Shown here: in pieces, positions 50,977-58,411 of the stretch
Position numbering within the stretch: the stretch's first letter is position 1
Layout of the letters: each line of letters opens with the position of its first letter
DNA from: Saccharofermentans sp.
GTDB lineage: Bacteria > Bacillota > Clostridia > Saccharofermentanales > Saccharofermentanaceae
Direction of reading: 5' to 3'
Assembly: GCA_024683485.1 (NCBI GenBank)
Contig: JAIKYD010000107.1
Location: 62,001 to 126,000, forward strand
DNA: 64,000 nt
Notes under the pieces: model-generated
Databases searched by the model: none
Told to the model about the DNA's origin: nothing
What the model saw: only the letters and a program-made list of their open reading frames with translations
Translations under genes and position numbers: made by a program

Positions 50977-51036
50977 TCTGCCTCCAGGTTTTCGTGTTTT
51001 CTATTATTATACTTAACCGGCCTGAAGTAAGCCTGC

Positions 51037-51065
51037 TTAATTCACTCCCCGATAAAAGGTATAAT
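51037..51065 (+). promoter_or_regulatory. Promoter of the sigma-WYL gene
   Basis: TATAAT (51060-51065) with a weak TTAATT (51037-51042) at 17-base spacing lies 47 bases before the start codon. The -10 box is perfect; the -35 box matches only half of the consensus. Confidence 0.45.
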
Positions 51066-51111
51066 TTATGAAATACTACGCAGAACGGTCTACATTTTTA
51101 AGGAGTTTTCC

Positions 51112-52758
51112 ATGATCAAAAAAGACATCAAGCCAAAAGAATCCACAAAAATATACAGGAACAGTCTTACCATCGAAGAGGAAAAACAATGTATCCGTAT
51201 GATCCGCAATGGCACCGAGGAGGAATATGAAGCTGCCTGGGGCAAGATCTATGCGGAATTCATAGATCTGATCGCAAGCGTGGTGAGAAAAAAGATGAAT
51301 CTCTTGATAACCAATCCTTACGATCAGGAACTGGAAAAAGATCTGACACAGGCTGGTTATCTCGGTGTTGTCTCGGCAGTCAGGAAATACAAGCTGACTT
51401 CTAAAGCTAAGCTGACAACTTACGCTATGTATTACATAGAGAGAAATATAAGTTACGAGTTCATGCTTCAGATGAGTTCGGGCACAAAAAACAATTCAAG
51501 AAGACGTGCAAAAAGATCAACTGTAAAACAGAGCAGCAAGATAAAGCCTGTAAGAACGTCCCGAAAATCAGTCAGCACAGAAAAGAACAATACATCTGAA
51601 CAAGGCAAATACGGAAGTGAACGTCTTACTTTGCAGCTTTTGGATGTGATCCGCAAGGAAACAGATATCAATAACAAGAAGTCATCCCTTGAACTCAGAA
51701 AGGCCCTCAGCGCCTATATCAAAGACAGTCACGGAAATACCGTACCGCAGGCCGATGAGGACGGCAAGACTATCCATAAGATACTTGCAGAAATGGCTTT
51801 CGAACTGGATGATGAAGTGTGCATAGATGACGAGGATTTCTTCAGCAAGATCAAGATGAATGAATCTGACAGCATGAGCGTCCGTGTAAAGTCGGCGCCA
51901 TCCTGCAAGAGCGTTTTTTACAAGCATCTTTTCGATGACAGCGAAATGGACAAACTTATACAGCTTGTCTGTTCTTCCGAACAGTTAACCGACAAAGAGA
52001 AGAAATCACTCGTGAATAAACTCATCTCCACCAAGAGCAATTACTACTCAACACCTCTCTGGGACAGGAAGAAAAATATTCCAATGTTCGATCCGAAAGG
52101 CATACACGGCAGATACAAAGACAACAAGCGTCTTACTGGAAACATTAAGACTATCCAGGAGGCCATCAACTCACGCGCACAGATATCATTCAAATTCAAC
52201 CGTTACACCGAAGACAAGGAACTTGTTTATACGACAGGGAAAGAACACATCGTCAACCCGTATCACATCGTGATCTATCATGATAATTACTACCTGATCT
52301 GCACAAACAGGCGCTCACCTGTGATCCAGCATTATCGTCTTGACCTCATGACTGACGTCTCAGTACGCAAGGATAAAAAGTCCAGCCAATATATTCCTGT
52401 TGAATATGACTCGCTGTCCGATGTGCCCCGCTCAGTCCGCTATTTGAACTGGAATCCCTCTCAATACATGTCCGAACACCTCTATATGGGATATGACAAA
52501 CCCCGCAAGATCACATTCAGAGCAAAAAAGAGCGAAGAAAAGATCTTCACGACTTTCCACGACTGGTTTGATGATAATTTCACCTCCCGTGATGACCGCC
52601 AAAACCCCGGTTCGATAATTCTGGAAGTAACGACCTCCCCTTCCCTGATCGTCCCCTTTGCACTTCAATATTCAGACATGTTCGAAGTGGTGAATCCGGA
52701 GATAAGAGAAGAAATATATAAAAAGATATCTGAGCTAAGACGGAAATACAAAGAATAA
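51112..52758 (+). CDS. Fusion of sigma-70 region 2 with a winged-helix/WYL regulator
   Basis: The 548-residue protein combines two transcription modules. Residues about 40-120 match sigma-70 region 2: DLTQAGYLGVVSAVRKYK followed by LTTYAMYYIERNISYEF, which cover core-binding and -10 recognition. A basic linker (about 123-160; SRRRAKRSTVK) follows. Residues about 171-245 resemble the winged helix of WYL regulators (LQLLDVIRKETD). The WYL domain lies at about 345-420 (HIVNPYHIVIYHDNYYLICT, QHYRLD) and a WCX-like end at about 465-548. Sigma region 4 is absent. AAGGAG precedes the ATG. The eight genes downstream carry a repeated palindromic upstream element that may be its target. Confidence 0.8.
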   Translation: MIKKDIKPKESTKIYRNSLTIEEEKQCIRMIRNGTEEEYEAAWGKIYAEFIDLIASVVRKKMNLLITNPYDQELEKDLTQAGYLGVVSAVRKYKLTSKAKLTTYAMYYIERNISYEFMLQMSSGTKNNSRRRAKRSTVKQSSKIKPVRTSRKSVSTEKNNTSEQGKYGSERLTLQLLDVIRKETDINNKKSSLELRKALSAYIKDSHGNTVPQADEDGKTIHKILAEMAFELDDEVCIDDEDFFSKIKMNESDSMSVRVKSAPSCKSVFYKHLFDDSEMDKLIQLVCSSEQLTDKEKKSLVNKLISTKSNYYSTPLWDRKKNIPMFDPKGIHGRYKDNKRLTGNIKTIQEAINSRAQISFKFNRYTEDKELVYTTGKEHIVNPYHIVIYHDNYYLICTNRRSPVIQHYRLDLMTDVSVRKDKKSSQYIPVEYDSLSDVPRSVRYLNWNPSQYMSEHLYMGYDKPRKITFRAKKSEEKIFTTFHDWFDDNFTSRDDRQNPGSIILEVTTSPSLIVPFALQYSDMFEVVNPEIREEIYKKISELRRKYKE

Positions 52759-52892
52759 AATCTTCTTCCTCTTTATCTTGAAACAACTGAGTTTCATATA
52801 TAGATTCTAAAAAACCTCCAAAATAAGTGAGTCTTCAGTAATTTTTTGAAAATCACACCACTTAATCCTTTTCAGCTGCGCGATAACAGTCA

Positions 52893-52933
52893 CCGCAAGA
52901 TTTTGCGGTTGCCATCTCCATAATATTAGCAGA
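52893..52933 (+). repeat. 41-bp upstream element, copy 1
   Basis: CCGCAA (52893-52898) and TTGCGG (52903-52908) are perfect inverted arms around GATT. After eight variable bases comes TCCATAATATTAGCAGA. The same element occurs at 53544; 35 of 41 positions agree by hand count, with the same spacing. If CATAAT is a -10 box, the palindrome sits at about -31, where a -35 contact is expected. It lies 32 bases before the start codon of the next gene. Confidence 0.75.
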
Positions 52934-52964
52934 TACAAAATTACGTTAAGGGAGGTGGACTTTT

Positions 52965-53528
52965 ATGAAATCCATTCAAGTAGCAGCAGGCAGGACAACA
53001 GATCTTAAGAATGTTATAGACATCGACAGAGGAAACGTATTTCTTCTCAGGTGCGGCAAGAGAAACAGCACATATGTAATTTATATTGGAAGAAGACGCA
53101 AGCTAAATTATAAGGCAGAAGAAATGTATCTGATCCTTCATGTCAAAAATCATTACGAGATCGAGAGGCTGGAACCCGGGGAAATTAACCTTGTCGATCA
53201 CATCAGAAGCAAGGGATATAAATGCCAAACACTGAATTATTGTGATCACGTCAATAACTACAAAGAAAAGCTTTTAATCTACAATACCGGATTCGGCATG
53301 TTTACGGAAAACGGATATGCGTTCCAAATACTCAAGTGGACTTTGTCCGGTGCGTTTTTCAAATTTCTGATAGTCCCTTGCGGAAAACCTTTAGACGAAC
53401 TGGATTTTGTCTCAGATTATGACTTTATGGGCAGATACCGCAAGATTATTAAGAAATTTCTGACTGAACCAGAAAACTACGCACAGAACTACGACGAATT
53501 ATTGTCTAAAGCCGAAATCAATTTCTAA
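52965..53528 (+). CDS. Hypothetical protein, first gene of the accessory block
   Basis: The 187-residue soluble protein has a beta-rich N-terminal part (VFLLRCGKRNSTYVIYIG), a central KGYKCQTLNYCDHVNNYKEK segment and a helical end. I recognise no family and see no signal or membrane segment. GGGAGGTGG before ATG 52965 is a strong ribosome site, and the first 41-bp element lies immediately upstream. The gene is followed by the second element, so it can be expressed separately from the other block genes. Confidence 0.55.
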   Translation: MKSIQVAAGRTTDLKNVIDIDRGNVFLLRCGKRNSTYVIYIGRRRKLNYKAEEMYLILHVKNHYEIERLEPGEINLVDHIRSKGYKCQTLNYCDHVNNYKEKLLIYNTGFGMFTENGYAFQILKWTLSGAFFKFLIVPCGKPLDELDFVSDYDFMGRYRKIIKKFLTEPENYAQNYDELLSKAEINF

Positions 53529-53543
53529 ACCACAATTTTATCT

Positions 53544-53584
53544 CCGCAATATTTTGCGGTTGATGTTTCCATAATATTTGCAGA
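53544..53584 (+). repeat. 41-bp upstream element, copy 2
   Basis: CCGCAA (53544-53549) and TTGCGG (53554-53559) surround TATT. Eight variable bases and TCCATAATATTTGCAGA follow. Architecture and spacing equal those of the copy at 52893. It starts 16 bases after the stop codon of the first block gene and precedes the leader of the second. Confidence 0.75.
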
Positions 53585-53588
53585 AAGA

Positions 53589-53624
53589 ATCTGAACTGCC
53601 TTGTTTTCGGCAGTCTTTTCAGAT
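53589..53624 (+). promoter_or_regulatory. Leader hairpin, possible attenuator
   Basis: ATCTGAACTGCC (53589-53600) folds against GGCAG (53609-53613) and TTCAGAT (53618-53624) with a four-base bulge. A shorter fold, ACTGCC/GGCAGT followed by CTTTTC, looks like a weak terminator. It lies downstream of the second 41-bp element and before the ribosome site of the second block gene, so it may reduce or regulate read-through. Confidence 0.45.
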
Positions 53625-53665
53625 GCAAGATTTTTCATTATTCAATTTGTTAAAGGAGGAAGAAC

Positions 53666-54013
53666 ATGAAAGATTATGTAATGTTTGTAGAGAGAAGCTA
53701 TGTGTGGGTTGATAACAACATGGGTTATTACCACGAATTCATTGAGGCATGGGGATTAACGTCAAAAGGCGTGATCGATGAGATCAAAGATCCGAATGAC
53801 ATTTATCATTATTTGTTCATAGAAGAAATCAAGAAGGACGTTGATTGGAAAGAATTCTATTCTCATACGAAGCACTTTGTTCTGACAACGGTCTATATCC
53901 GTGAAGATCATTTGGAACTCTATAACATTAGGCGAAAGAGAGGCAGACCCGCTAAAAATGTGATGAAGCTCATGGCTCAGGAAATAGGAGGTGATGAAGA
54001 TGAGAACGTTTAA
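53666..54013 (+). CDS. Hypothetical protein with AT-hook-like motif
   Basis: The 115-residue protein is rich in aromatic and acidic residues in its first 90 positions (YVWVDNNMGYYHEFIEAWG). Then comes a basic RRKRGRPAKNVM segment whose core RGRP is the AT-hook motif that binds the minor groove of AT-rich DNA. The end is acidic (GGDEDENV). I recognise no family. AAAGGAGG lies before the ATG. Its last 14 bases overlap the start of the next gene, whose ribosome site lies inside this one. Confidence 0.55.
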   Translation: MKDYVMFVERSYVWVDNNMGYYHEFIEAWGLTSKGVIDEIKDPNDIYHYLFIEEIKKDVDWKEFYSHTKHFVLTTVYIREDHLELYNIRRKRGRPAKNVMKLMAQEIGGDEDENV

Positions 54014-54992
54014 CGAGATCAGACCAGAGAGCATTAAATGTGACAACATCTGGAAACTCTATATGGTATTAGTCACATTGGACTCCCCTTACTTAAAGAC
54101 TCGGCTTAGAGGTGATGATACAGAGTATCTGTACCTGATCAAGAGTGTCAGCCTTGAATCCGGAGAAGTTGACTACACGTTTGATCATATGTGCAACATG
54201 GAACTGCCGTACCGTAAGAATGAGACTATCCACTTATGCCTTAAACGCATGCTGTGCAATGAAGAGATCTCGAAGGAACTTGATATAAGCGTCAACTCAT
54301 ATTCTGCCTACGACAGAAAACTTACAGCAAAAGGAATCTTGGACAGACATAACGTTGCTCTCCCAAATAAGGACGAATTGAATAAATCATCTTTCGTACG
54401 GGACATGCCCGTTACATATATCGAGGAAAAGCCTAAACACAAGACAGGTCGTCCACATAAAGGATGGAGGTTAACAAACCAGGAAAGAGCCGCGAGATTC
54501 AAAGCTTTTCTCGATGATAAGGATATTTGGTATATGTGTGATACCGATCTTGGTGTTCCGCACATCACGATGGTTTTCGAGATCCCTGATTGTCTTGTTA
54601 GATGTATTGAAAGCAGTATCTGGTTCTTTGAACGTCATGCAGAGGTCAAGACTTACTATCCGGAAGTGGTGTCCAAGATGTGCGAATGCGGGTGTTTAGA
54701 TGAATTGCTGAAGCTTCTTAACTATATGAATGCCTATGTAATCCCGGGTAATTCCGAAGGCGAAGTCAATCTCTCGCCGAGGTTCTATAACAACCCTGCC
54801 GACTTTTCCATCGTTGAAAGGACGGTCATCAATTACAAGTTCTGGGATGCATTGCCCGATACAGAAGAATACATTACCGGGTGCTGTCCGGAACTTCTTA
54901 ACGACCTTGCACCATTCATCGTAGGTGTTATTACAGGCAATCTTACTTCCGGCAAGGCAATGGAACTGATCGAGACAAACATTCTGAATTAA
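54000..54992 (+). CDS. Hypothetical protein with HTH-like and AT-hook-like segments
   Basis: The start is ATG 54000, eight bases after AGGAGG; GTG 53991 and ATG 53994 fall in or next to that site. The 330-residue protein has a region (about 78-110: CNEEISKELDISVNSYSAYD) that reads like a helix-turn-helix. It also has a basic KTGRPHKGWR segment (about 152) close to an AT hook. The C-terminal 170 residues are mixed and unassigned. DNA binding is plausible from these two features but unproven. It overlaps the previous gene by 14 bases. Confidence 0.55.
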   Translation: MRTFNEIRPESIKCDNIWKLYMVLVTLDSPYLKTRLRGDDTEYLYLIKSVSLESGEVDYTFDHMCNMELPYRKNETIHLCLKRMLCNEEISKELDISVNSYSAYDRKLTAKGILDRHNVALPNKDELNKSSFVRDMPVTYIEEKPKHKTGRPHKGWRLTNQERAARFKAFLDDKDIWYMCDTDLGVPHITMVFEIPDCLVRCIESSIWFFERHAEVKTYYPEVVSKMCECGCLDELLKLLNYMNAYVIPGNSEGEVNLSPRFYNNPADFSIVERTVINYKFWDALPDTEEYITGCCPELLNDLAPFIVGVITGNLTSGKAMELIETNILN

Positions 54993-55008
54993 GAAAGAGG
55001 TGATGAAG

Positions 55009-55287
55009 ATGAGCAACAATAAAGATTTCGTTGTCAGCGTTGAGTTTTACGCGAATGAATCAGACAAGAAGAAAGGAGTTTGCAAAGACAGGTGCACCGT
55101 TAACTTTCCGAAGGATAAGTGCGCGGGGAAGCTCCGGAGGATTACCGCTATCGAGGATGAAAATGAACGTGAGAATGAAATGTGCAGACTGAAGTTCAAA
55201 GTGAAGAGCGCTGCTCTTGATCAGATCAGAAACAAAATCGGCAATGAAGGAATCTTAGTAGCTAATATCGAGGAGGATGCAGTATGA
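55009..55287 (+). CDS. Small hypothetical protein
   Basis: The start is ATG 55009, eight bases after AAAGAGG. The bases GAGGTGATGAAGATGAG around the start are the same as at the preceding gene. The 92-residue product is charged and lysine-rich with a beta-like first half (DFVVSVEFYANES) and three cysteines. I recognise no family. Its stop overlaps the next start by 4 bases, so translation is coupled. Confidence 0.5.
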   Translation: MSNNKDFVVSVEFYANESDKKKGVCKDRCTVNFPKDKCAGKLRRITAIEDENERENEMCRLKFKVKSAALDQIRNKIGNEGILVANIEEDAV

Positions 55288-56036
55288 GAAACATGATGAA
55301 AGAATATCTTGGTGACGATTATTCAGATAACTGTGTCAGGAACTTCTGTCTTTACTGGATAAAGGCTTCACAGGGGAGCGGGTCTGAATGGCGCAAAAAT
55401 AATGATCTTGACTGTCTGTACTATAACGGTGATCTCCGGGCTGACACATTGATGAGCGCGTGGTCACCTGTCAAGATGGTCGCCGATTATCTTAACAGGG
55501 ATACCGGAAAAGTATTCTTCAAAAAGAGAGCTGATTGTGACGATCCGTTTCACGATCTTAGACTCCTGGCAGAGGATACAGATGCATATCTTCCGCCAAA
55601 GCACAGGCTGGTCATTAAACTTAACAAGTTCCTGAAACTTGCGGAGCAGGCTTGCAATTATTTCCTTCTGCCGGACAGCAGGATGAATTGTGAAAGGTAC
55701 AGGATCAACATAAACGGCAAAGCCGTCTGGCTCTTTGATCAGGTGCCCGCAACACTTGCTCATTTGTTTGATAAGGAAAGCCTCGGCAAGTATTTCCTTG
55801 ATGAAAAAGGAAATGTTGACCGGAAAAAGCTGACTGAATGGTTAGTTAATGAAAAACTCACGTTCGGATTTGAGGACGGAAAGACCGATAAAGATCACAT
55901 AAAGCCGCTTATCAAAGGACTTGATCCGTATAAAGCCAAGTGGCTTACAGACGAAGATGAGATTGACGAAGCACTGACATACATGATGTCTTTACTGAGC
56001 GAAAGAAATAAATCATTTGGTAATGAGGAGGTATAA
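55284..56036 (+). CDS. Hypothetical protein
   Basis: The 250-residue protein is soluble and largely helical, with conserved-looking tryptophans (CLYWIKASQGSGSEWRKN, MSAWSPVKMVADYL). A long central helix region follows (PPKHRLVIKLNKFLKLAEQ), and then an acidic C-terminal helix. The later part (KKLTEWLVNEKLTFGFEDG) might be a small helical domain. I recognise no family. The start overlaps the previous stop (ATGA); the next gene starts three bases after the stop. Confidence 0.55.
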   Translation: MRNMMKEYLGDDYSDNCVRNFCLYWIKASQGSGSEWRKNNDLDCLYYNGDLRADTLMSAWSPVKMVADYLNRDTGKVFFKKRADCDDPFHDLRLLAEDTDAYLPPKHRLVIKLNKFLKLAEQACNYFLLPDSRMNCERYRININGKAVWLFDQVPATLAHLFDKESLGKYFLDEKGNVDRKKLTEWLVNEKLTFGFEDGKTDKDHIKPLIKGLDPYKAKWLTDEDEIDEALTYMMSLLSERNKSFGNEEV

Positions 56037-56039
56037 CCC

Positions 56040-56552
56040 ATGTTGAAGAATAATGAAAACAAGATGATCGGACAGGCAAGGCTTAAGCTTTTACTGATGC
56101 TTATGCTCAAGGATATTCCTGAACTCGATGTGAGTGTCAAAGGCGGTCACGGCAAGAATGAGAATCAGATGTACTACTGGATCAAGTGCAATTATTCAGG
56201 ACACGAGTTTTGGATAACTTTTTTCGGGAAGTGGTATGATGCTGAATTCGATATGTACCATAACAACCATGACACCGTCATGTTCGTGCATGCAAAACCC
56301 GGAACAGGCAGAACTTCTCCGAGCAGTTTGTATTCAAAGGACTCTGCATCCAAATCACTCGAATGGACAAATCCTTTGGAATACCTGGAAAATAAGGATG
56401 GTATGTATTACATTACTTCTAAAGACATCCTGGAATCCGATAAACTTGCGGAAGATGTGATCGGAGCGTTTGCCCTGTTTATACTGACTCATACCGATGA
56501 GTTCTTTATCGACTGGATGAGATCATTAAAGTTTAACAAGGAGACTGAATGA
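56040..56552 (+). CDS. Hypothetical protein
   Basis: The 170-residue protein starts with a hydrophobic but short helix (ARLKLLLMLMLKDIPELD), followed by a strand-rich part (MYYWIKCNYSGHEFWITFFG) and a helical end (AFALFILTHTDEFFIDWM). It has no clear membrane anchor. I recognise no family. GAGGAGGT precedes ATG 56040, and its stop overlaps the start of the HD-domain gene by 4 bases, tying it to the enzyme genes downstream. Confidence 0.55.
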   Translation: MLKNNENKMIGQARLKLLLMLMLKDIPELDVSVKGGHGKNENQMYYWIKCNYSGHEFWITFFGKWYDAEFDMYHNNHDTVMFVHAKPGTGRTSPSSLYSKDSASKSLEWTNPLEYLENKDGMYYITSKDILESDKLAEDVIGAFALFILTHTDEFFIDWMRSLKFNKETE

Positions 56553-57115
56553 ACAAGTATTCATTAAGTGACATAGATGAGATAAGAGATTACAACAGGG
56601 ACAGATTCACAGAATTCTTCCCTGCTTCTCTTCAGAGCGAGGAATTGCTTGATTATCTTTACAACAACGCTTACTTCACTGCCCCGTCCGCATGCGGTAT
56701 CCACGGGGCGTGGATAGGCGGCAATTACGATCACAGTATGAAGGTCACAGAATATCTCTTGCAATATACCAAAGATGAGAACCTCACCTGGGAACGCGAA
56801 GAATCGCCGTATATAATCGGTATGTTCCATGATCTCTGCAAGAGCGATATCAGAGACTTCAAAATGACCAAAGACGGAAAGCTTAAGGTGATCACGGTTC
56901 CGAACAAAGATAAGCGTCATGCCGAGAAATCACTGGAACTGATCGCGCCGTTTATCGAGCTTACGATCGAGGAAAAGCTCTGCATCTATTACCACATGGG
57001 CAAATACGATGAGACGCTTGATTACATCGAACTGATGGACAAAGTCGCCCTGAAATATCCCAACATTCTCTGGACGCAGAAAGCTGATACGAGAGCAGCC
57101 AGAGAAGGAATTTAA
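56549..57115 (+). CDS. HD-domain phosphohydrolase
   Basis: The 188-residue protein shows the HD-superfamily metal-binding set: NYDHSMKVTEYL (first His), GMFHDLCKSD (HD pair), HAEKSLELI and YYHMG (further His), and a late Asp in KADTRAA. HD enzymes hydrolyse phosphate esters of nucleotides or related compounds; small forms such as this are found in phages and genomic islands. The substrate is unknown. It is coupled to the preceding unknown gene and lies 11 bases upstream of the metallophosphoesterase gene. Confidence 0.82.
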   Translation: MNKYSLSDIDEIRDYNRDRFTEFFPASLQSEELLDYLYNNAYFTAPSACGIHGAWIGGNYDHSMKVTEYLLQYTKDENLTWEREESPYIIGMFHDLCKSDIRDFKMTKDGKLKVITVPNKDKRHAEKSLELIAPFIELTIEEKLCIYYHMGKYDETLDYIELMDKVALKYPNILWTQKADTRAAREGI

Positions 57116-57126
57116 AAGGAGAATAC

Positions 57127-57840
57127 ATGAAGGTATTAATCATTCCCGATGTCCATCTTAAGCCGTGGATCTTCGATCAGGCTGAAGACATAATGAGAGA
57201 AAAAGATTTTGACCGCGCAGTATTTATCGGCGATCTGGTAGATGACTGGAATCGTCAGAACGATGCCGGTCTTTATGAGGAAACATTGAAACGTGCTGTG
57301 GAGTTCGCAAAGAATCATCCCGATATGCTTTGGTGTTACGGCAATCACGATCTTGCTTATCTATGGGATATATATGATCATCCCGGGTTTTCCGATGATG
57401 CAAAAGATATTGTCTGTGAGTATTTCAACATCCTTGAGGACACTTTGGAATCGCCGGAAAACATAGCAATATTGCACCGCATCGACAATGTGCTTTTCTC
57501 CCACGCAGGACTCGTCAAAGGTTTTGTTGACGATTATTTGGATGACATAAGAGACGGTATTGACGCGGTCATCGATACAGTTAACGGATTTGACCAGAAC
57601 GAACTCTGGGACGATATAAGCCCGGTATGGGCAAGGCCACAGTACCGGAACGGTTTTGAGAATATGTATCCGCCGGAATTCTTTCAGGTGGTCAGACACA
57701 CACCTGTCCCCTGGGTCTTAAAGCAGGGAAATCTTCTTACGACCGATACCTTCTCAACGGCAAGTGACGGAAGACCTATCGGCACTAATGAGTTCAGCTG
57801 GGTGGATACCATGACCAGGGAAGGAGGACCAATCGAATGA
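57127..57840 (+). CDS. Calcineurin-like metallophosphoesterase
   Basis: The 237-residue protein has the metallophosphoesterase motifs in order: DVH (IPDVHLKP), GDLVDDW, GNHD (CYGNHDLAYL) and SHAG, spaced as in PPP-type phosphatases and ApaH-like enzymes. A final His motif is less clear (RHTPVPW). It should be a two-metal phosphodiesterase or phosphatase, acting on nucleotides or a phosphoprotein. It overlaps the next gene by 4 bases. The three phosphohydrolase genes together look like one functional unit. Confidence 0.88.
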   Translation: MKVLIIPDVHLKPWIFDQAEDIMREKDFDRAVFIGDLVDDWNRQNDAGLYEETLKRAVEFAKNHPDMLWCYGNHDLAYLWDIYDHPGFSDDAKDIVCEYFNILEDTLESPENIAILHRIDNVLFSHAGLVKGFVDDYLDDIRDGIDAVIDTVNGFDQNELWDDISPVWARPQYRNGFENMYPPEFFQVVRHTPVPWVLKQGNLLTTDTFSTASDGRPIGTNEFSWVDTMTREGGPIE

Positions 57841-58343
57841 TCGGGAAAATCTTTTTTGATATGGACGGTGTCCTTGCAGACTTCGACAGGGGTGTGGAAG
57901 AACTATGCCACATGCCACCGCAGAATATTAACGGCAAGAGGGATCTTCAAAAAGATGATGAGATGTGGCTTCGGATAAAAAAGACCGGTCACTTCTATGA
58001 CAAACTCGAAATGATGCCCGGCGCATATGAGATGTTTGATCAGATCTACAGCAAATATCCCGGCTGCTGCGAGATCCTTACCGGTATCCCCAAGCCGAAC
58101 CGCGGCATCACTACTGCAGGCGAAGATAAGACCAATTGGGTCCGCAGACTTCTTTCCAAAAACATCAAAGTCAACATCGTTTTCCGTGAAGAAAAACCCC
58201 GTTACTGCTCTGGAACAGACTGCATCCTTATCGATGATTCTATCGAGAACATCAATGACTGGATCAGGTTTGGCGGCACGGGAATACTTCACAAAAGCGC
58301 GGATGAGACAATCGCCAGACTTAAAGAACTCGGCATCTTATGA
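57837..58343 (+). CDS. HAD-superfamily 5'-nucleotidase-like protein
   Basis: The 168-residue protein has the HAD motif 1 FFDMDGVLADFDRG with the nucleophile and acid/base aspartates, a Thr in LTGIP (motif 2), the lysine KTNWVRR (motif 3) and LIDDSIENINDW (motif 4). The order and length are those of the NT5C-like deoxyribonucleotidases often carried by phages. It should dephosphorylate a nucleoside monophosphate. Its ATGA start is coupled to the metallophosphoesterase gene. It is the last gene before a strong terminator. Confidence 0.88.
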   Translation: MIGKIFFDMDGVLADFDRGVEELCHMPPQNINGKRDLQKDDEMWLRIKKTGHFYDKLEMMPGAYEMFDQIYSKYPGCCEILTGIPKPNRGITTAGEDKTNWVRRLLSKNIKVNIVFREEKPRYCSGTDCILIDDSIENINDWIRFGGTGILHKSADETIARLKELGIL

Positions 58344-58411
58344 TCTGATTAACCTGACTCTTCTATAGCCTTAAGGCAAACCAACAAAAACTCCAATTGT
58401 CAACATTATTG

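Follow-up and report, generated by a model that had tools for sequence, protein, structure and literature searches.

The window is the whole 64,000-nucleotide stretch of Saccharofermentans sp. DNA analysed here (assembly GCA_024683485.1, contig JAIKYD010000107.1, positions 62,001 to 126,000 of the forward strand). It contains an island in which a block of nine genes, at positions 52965-58343, is preceded by SW, a gene whose product combines a sigma-70 domain with a WYL domain. With somewhat better than even confidence, we suggest that the block is a dedicated regulon of SW, a putative WYL-gated sigma factor with private promoters, serving a stress or conflict response. The features of the locus are listed below.

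50977..58411, no strand: island limits, from empty-site comparison with genomes G097 (L089) and G031 (L090)
51037..51065, + strand: candidate housekeeping promoter of SW, TTAATT-17-TATAAT, judged from sequence
51112..52758, + strand: SW, with sigma-70 region 1.2/2, predicted winged helix-turn-helix (wHTH), WYL and WCX-like C-terminus
52893..52935, + strand: element 1, before g1; dyad CCGCAAGATTTTGCGG at 52893-52908, CATAAT at 52919-52924, start-region motif to 52935
52965..53528, + strand: g1, 187 amino acids (aa), no family; roughly half of the islands have a member of the g1 group, in 1-2 copies
53544..53586, + strand: element 2, before g2; dyad CCGCAATATTTTGCGG at 53544-53559, CATAAT at 53570-53575
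53593..53619, + strand: terminator-like hairpin, closely following element 2 in the leader of g2; weak, failing a strict terminator scan
53666..54013, + strand: g2, 115 aa, no family; homologue in L002
54000..54992, + strand: g3, about 330 aa, no family; homologues in L006, L020, L029 and L033
55009..55287, + strand: g4, about 92 aa, no family
55284..56036, + strand: g5, 250 aa, no family; the most widespread island protein of this unassigned kind
56040..56552, + strand: g6, 170 aa, no family; homologues in L029, L030 and L031
56549..57115, + strand: HD phosphohydrolase, PF01966, E 1.3e-4; distant phage relatives
57127..57840, + strand: calcineurin-like phosphoesterase (MPE), PF00149, E 2.7e-8; motifs DVH, GD, GNHD, H, (G/R)HTP
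57837..58343, + strand: HAD phosphatase of NT5C type, PF06941, E 3.1e-8; phrog_2643, E 3.8e-30; DMDGV motif

The list of open reading frames (ORFs) gives nine in the block, all on the same strand (187, 115, 333, 95, 250, 170, 188, 237 and 168 aa). A first-pass annotation of this DNA had rightly described a same-strand arrangement downstream of a sigma-WYL gene, ending in HD, calcineurin-like and HAD enzymes, as the PF01966, PF00149 and PF06941 matches bear out. It had counted eight genes, however, where there are nine, and five without a family where there are six (187, 115, 333, 95, 250 and 170 aa). Its proposal of a coupled operon holds for g2 to the HAD gene, which are tightly packed, and fails for g1, which is set apart by gaps of 206 bp from SW and 137 bp from g2. 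Within the packed run, a short gap separates g3 from g4, g4 and g5 overlap by 4 nt, g5 and g6 lie 3 nt apart, g6 and the HD gene overlap by 4 nt, 11 nt separate the HD and MPE genes, and the MPE and HAD genes overlap by 4 nt; the start of g3 was shifted from GTG at 53991 to the ATG that matches the Shine-Dalgarno sequence. No convincing family match was obtained for g1-g6 in Pfam, NCBIfam or PHROGs. The association is beyond chance, the same gene families co-occurring in 17 other islands.

The 206-bp and 137-bp gaps, the two longest of the block, carry a 49-nt repeat (82% identical), and one composite promoter-like element is present in each. The element was first spotted in the repeats and then by reading every intergenic gap of the islands. 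It is built of an AT-centred 16-bp dyad, a gap of 8 or 9 bp, TCCATAAT and then approximately GTGAAAA. The centre of the dyad lies about 18 bp before CATAAT, that is at -35, where TTGACA is absent, and CATA is invariant (31/31) with a conserved start region behind it. Furthermore, the dyad arms co-vary, with 156 of 208 cells complementary compared to 133 after shuffling (0/5000). In several islands the upstream stop codon is followed, after no more than a few bases, by the element, so that another promoter would not fit between them.

Eighteen islands were compared, namely those of the window, L002-L006, L019-L023, L029-L031 and L033-L036, several of which are cut by contig ends. Scoring matrices were trained repeatedly, each time without one group of related islands, and every one of the 18 islands, when held out, showed the element before genes on the correct strand (with scores of 24.0 for element 1 and 27.0 for element 2). 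The control, 3.57 Mb of Markov-1 sequence, gave 20 matches at a threshold of 13. Since the instances in the matrix had first been picked by eye, the whole-genome scans serve as independent tests. In the 2.52-Mb genome of the window, a scan allowing up to 3 mismatches returned two matches, before g1 and g2 and each with 0 mismatches, and the control returned zero. In twelve other genomes, the second-clade version of the element was found inside islands only, and it was absent from five genomes of the genus without a strong SW match. The composite element was not found in viral contigs. It is these whole-genome counts and held-out scans, together with the tree described next, that support the element, and not its first sighting.

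The choice between the 8-bp and 9-bp gap corresponds to one change on the SW tree, where the clade with the 8-bp spacing has a support of 100/100 (L033 carries one of each, weakly). This spacing bears on a further way to read the dyad, in which SW is a repressor seated over the promoter and released by a WYL ligand, as are BrxR and CapW. Both of these WYL regulators are among the fold matches of SW, and repressors classically bind a dyad that overlaps a promoter. However, a fixed spacing between dyad and box that has changed a single time, in step with the SW clade, is not what such a repressor calls for, nor is the lack of TTGACA at -35, and a sigma domain would be needless to it. Moreover, a leave-group-out scan found no composite element before the SW gene of any island, so there is no autorepression. 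We regard a repressor as quite improbable.

The borders of the SW domains lie at about residues 14-123 (sigma), 165-300 (predicted wHTH), 344-419 (WYL) and 465-547 (WCX-like), the WYL domain in the C-terminal half matching PF13280 with E 6.8e-9. When a profile of ten SW proteins was compared with the PDB, only sigma factors were among the matches listed, over positions 6-126 (SigF, E 7e-11). The N-terminal domain of an AlphaFold2 (AF2) model of SW likewise matches sigma domain 2, with Z of 11-12.8 and a root mean square deviation of mostly 2-3 A over about 95 residues. The C-terminal half of this low-confidence model (mean predicted local distance difference test, pLDDT, of 48) matches DriD (E 4.5e-8) and PafBC (E 7e-8). 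Sigma matches reach profile position about 170 at most, and the stretch behind, where the model is weak, aligns with wHTH-WYL regulators; WYL relatives of 345 aa align to SW positions 136-524. In 391 genomes of the class, the matches were either sigma factors (about 6-140) or WYL regulators, mostly of 320-370 aa (within about 136-524), and no full sigma-WYL fusion was found outside the islands in these or in 398 genomes of the phylum. Sigma-WYL fusions were not found described in the open-access literature searched, and the passages found of a survey of WYL architectures mention no sigma domain (PMC6789036).

From what was computed, namely the domain make-up, the specificity of the element, its co-evolution with SW, the insertion of the island and the modular co-occurrence of genes with intact motifs, we infer a sigma activity, a ligand, activation as the direction of control, substrates and a biological role. 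SW would be made from its housekeeping-type promoter and stay idle until the WYL domain binds a ligand, which may be single-stranded DNA (ssDNA), as for PafBC, DriD and CapW, or some other signal made of nucleic acid or nucleotides. Dimeric SW would then bind the dyad at -35 through its wHTH domains, which would take the place of sigma domain 4, and core RNA polymerase would use the sigma domain 2 of SW to open the CATAAT -10 box. One of the two promoters would turn on g1 and the other the eight-gene run from g2 to the HAD gene. The g1-g6 proteins may work with the phosphohydrolases on nucleotides or on the phosphate ends of damaged nucleic acid, and the trigger would probably be stress or the arrival of an invading phage or mobile element. 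In the case of PafBC, the ssDNA-bound WYL activator displaces sigma domain 4 on the -35 side (PMC11804915).

SW would thus be a WYL-gated sigma factor or a sigma-like activator of a private regulon and, between the two, we infer the former. Alternatively, SW could activate the SigA holoenzyme in the manner of PafBC and DriD, its sigma-2-like domain aiding docking while SigA reads CATAAT. PafBC and DriD do work with the housekeeping sigma factor (PMC11804915; PDB titles), and CATAAT is near TATAAT. Nevertheless, SigA would face competition for the core from a second sigma domain 2, the region 1.2/2 fold is complete in SW, and the invariant CATA together with the conserved start region exceeds the needs of SigA, such that we find this activator unlikely, although it deserves some weight.

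Several observations weigh against the proposed SW regulon. SigA could also read CATAAT, and the pairing of some elements with the Shine-Dalgarno region, described below, means that the element may have a function at the RNA level as well. The pLDDT of the SW model is below 50 for residues 121-278 and, as the model is weak there, the wHTH assignment rests on homology to the 345-aa WYL regulators. In an alignment by eye with the ssDNA-contacting arginines of PafBC, R409 and H407 are invariant and the position three before R409 varies; because only one of the two arginine positions seems to be kept, the ligand of SW may differ from ssDNA. The control for the scoring matrices was a Markov-1 model of the loci, real genomes being used in the whole-genome scans. 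Finally, no known defence genes were noted beside the islands whose gene content was listed.

In 9 of the 33 elements, the stretch just before CATAAT can pair by at least 6 with the Shine-Dalgarno region, and such pairing exceeds that of re-paired controls (mean 5.0 versus 4.35, 0/5000). The pairing bases were located at 52910-52965 in the window and also in L021, L031 and L036. A terminator-like hairpin is present between start site and gene in 7/33, compared to 2/1650 shuffled leaders; besides that of g2, such hairpins were seen at L019 9200-9290 and L005 8875-8960 and in L004, L006, L023 and L035. No element combines hairpin and pairing (0/33), and 17/33 have neither. This pattern was found after the fact, and the counts of 9/33 and 7/33 are not independent because the leaders are related to one another. 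We hypothesize that read-through from upstream is silenced, while the element's own transcripts would lack the blocking arm; for the leader hairpins, attenuation or insulation is possible.

The pairing, and the shuffling of cassettes between islands, could also mean that, rather than being promoters, the elements form leader structures in RNA or are the points at which the shuffled cassettes recombine. We consider this very improbable, given the fixed orientation and spacing, the AT-rich dyad centre and the -10-like box, and no Rfam family matches the element. Returning to SW as a sigma factor, we hold it an evenly balanced question whether it represents a new class, in which domain 2 is joined to a ligand-sensing wHTH-WYL-WCX portion that replaces domain 4 and commands an island-confined promoter, the cassettes being partly insulated from read-through by a Shine-Dalgarno-sequestering arm or a leader terminator.

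Homology to relatives stops on the left at about 50976 and resumes on the right at about 58411, at a terminator. The island between consists of SW and the nine genes, spans about 7.4 kb and lacks an integrase, as had been annotated. G097 and G031 are without it, and in both the glycerate kinase and alpha-galactosidase genes are adjacent or separated by one 292-aa-type gene; since the flanking genes are neighbours there, the island is an insertion. An SW island of its own is found in G106, where the 292-aa gene separates it from the neighbouring glycerate kinase gene. In the genus, g5 was detected in 10/85 genomes and SW in 13/85 (about 10-15% of the genus), and g5 loci are headed by SW with few exceptions, which are explained by contig ends. 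The earlier view of a self-contained accessory system that includes the regulator is supported by this patchy presence, by the insertion and by the confinement of the only genomic matches of the element to the island; the same distribution and the empty site in two relatives led us to reject a conserved housekeeping cluster.

A prophage or phage module was likewise rejected, as no phage structural genes or integrase accompany the block and searches of 50,697 phage records and of IMG/VR viral contigs did not find g5. The HD and HAD proteins have distant phage relatives only, the MPE hardly any, and all three are much closer to the copies of other islands than to phage copies. In G510 (Lachnospiraceae; L006), an island lies behind the 3′ end of what was identified, by eye, as an rlmD gene, and a second rlmD-like tail (76% identical, same orientation) follows 16.5 kb away. 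Between the tails are a MobA/L-type relaxase and a serine recombinase (broken into two ORFs, by eye). These repeats, together with the relaxase and recombinase, indicate that at least some island copies reside in an integrative element, here one of 16.5 kb with direct repeats of the gene 3′ end (G510:C4 8105-24784; L006, L048). Separately, a g5 homologue at L038 10624-11301 lies in a region resembling an integrative and conjugative element, with relaxase-like and coupling-protein-like ORFs (by eye) and a weak GIY-YIG match, without SW or the composite element. On the Paenibacillus plasmid pART37 (L039, 9995-10892), g5 is split into two ORFs, and behind them comes a 54-aa fragment resembling PPP; dpdA, annotated with queuosine-pathway genes, is about 9 kb away.

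The islands share SW wherever the contig reaches far enough. The recurring families are g1, g3, g5, g6, an F4- or DUF6994-type gene after SW, and the small F9, F10 and F14. Usually one to four phosphohydrolases are present per island, drawn from five types (including HD, calcineurin-like, NT5C-HAD and PPP) that substitute for one another between islands, the cassettes being shuffled. A phosphatase is not always present, because, in the sequence at hand, L036 shows no phosphohydrolase and L004 only a GNAT acetyltransferase. The catalytic motifs of the HD, MPE and HAD proteins are intact in the available island sequences (HD-family motifs aligned over 5 islands, HAD/NT5C active-site motifs kept in 6), although the MPE copy of L033 looks partial. 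The gene after SW in L030 and L031 belongs to DUF6994 (PF22507; E 1e-14 and 8e-16), which is absent from the island of the window and for which the Pfam authors suggested an HNH-like fold (PMC11701544).

For the remaining families, a g1 profile found no relative in the PDB. The g1 family is fused behind g5 in L020; as a general rule this fusion was rejected, since it holds only there and the common C-terminal extension of g5 is a different domain. A weak AT-hook-like RGRP motif in g2 stays under the Pfam cut-off, and a counterpart of g4 was seen by eye in the DNA ahead of g5 in L002. The closest relative of g5 (82% identity) is encoded in a Saccharofermentans metagenome-assembled genome, and Foldseek comparison of its AF2 model (pLDDT 60) with the PDB gave no match. 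Comparison of the unassigned families by hidden Markov models (HMM-HMM) gave nothing convincing (g5 against the DUF6994-type F13, E 0.02; F4 against F13, E 0.011), and a link between PPP and g3 over 20 columns was judged an artefact.

Stand-alone wHTH-WYL regulators in other Clostridia (L062, L063, L065, L066, L075 and L094) adjoin PPP, NT5C or UDG-superfamily or similar-looking proteins, L075 having an HD_4-UDG fusion, and the PPPs beside near stand-alone relatives are 48-52% identical to island PPPs. Because of these neighbours, the link of this regulator type to phosphohydrolases may predate the fusion. A second group of MPE-like paralogues (about 48% identity), in G011 and G029 (L024 9450-10160, L025 9683-10393), lies outside SW islands, beside an ABC transporter cluster conserved between both genomes.

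Comprising HD, NT5C-HAD and calcineurin-like enzymes that a WYL regulator would control, the effectors could provide inducible nucleotide depletion or dephosphorylation as phage defence; attack on the nucleotide pool by immune effectors is an established theme (PMC12265719, PMC12715507). PADLOC scans, however, gave weak generic matches only besides WYL (g1, E about 0.007), with no convincing match to the effectors, on which ground a known anti-phage system was rejected, and no neighbouring defence genes were seen. We treat a defence role as a tentative, rather doubtful possibility; the nucleotide salvage and signalling roles that the first-pass annotation also suggested are likewise conjectural. 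The effectors might instead repair or clean up the phosphate ends of damaged RNA or DNA; in jumbo phages, according to a review, such clean-up falls to calcineurin-like and HD-like phosphatases (PMC7824862). The interchange of several phosphatase types between islands fits such a task; no ligase, kinase or RtcB-like gene was recognised in the islands examined, and we estimate end repair to be unlikely. Both roles are compatible with the observations.

In its predicted wHTH-WYL-WCX build, action on the -35 side and nucleic-acid-sensing WYL domain, SW resembles PafBC of mycobacteria and DriD of Caulobacter, and the island element, like the sites of WYL activators, is a specific upstream motif at a fixed distance from the -10 box. 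In contrast, PafBC and DriD use the housekeeping sigma factor in trans, whereas SW has sigma region 1.2/2 in the same chain; unlike PafBC, SW seems, by eye, to retain just one of the two arginine positions for ssDNA, and its element is confined to its own island here. Judged from sequence and fold, SW shares with SigF, SigK, SigB and FliA regions 1.2-2, a CATAAT-like -10 box and a small, putatively dedicated regulon, but it has no recognisable region 3/4, carrying a predicted wHTH-WYL-WCX portion instead, and a dyad instead of a -35 hexamer. Like BrxR and CapW, it is a WYL regulator adjoining accessory genes in a patchy island, although the systems that those two are said to regulate are of BREX/CBASS type, and the SW island has none of their genes. 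The island enzymes have fold and catalytic motifs in common with the NT5C 5′-deoxynucleotidases, HD hydrolases and calcineurin-like phosphatases of phages and Bacillota, but differ from these as interchangeable members of a predicted SW-controlled island.

PafBC-type activators reprogram the housekeeping sigma factor; here the sensor seems to be joined to the sigma domain. SW and its element seemingly form a circuit of one protein and one promoter type that travels with its cargo, compact enough for testing in vitro, and might find use as an orthogonal, inducible promoter system. The promoter also defines a family of otherwise unassigned proteins (g1, g3, g5 and g6) that would work with phosphohydrolases, and the identity of the WYL ligand would reveal the event to which the island responds. 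If SW does represent a new sigma class, sensing, promoter choice and promoter opening would be united in one chain, and the effectors would be made only on demand.

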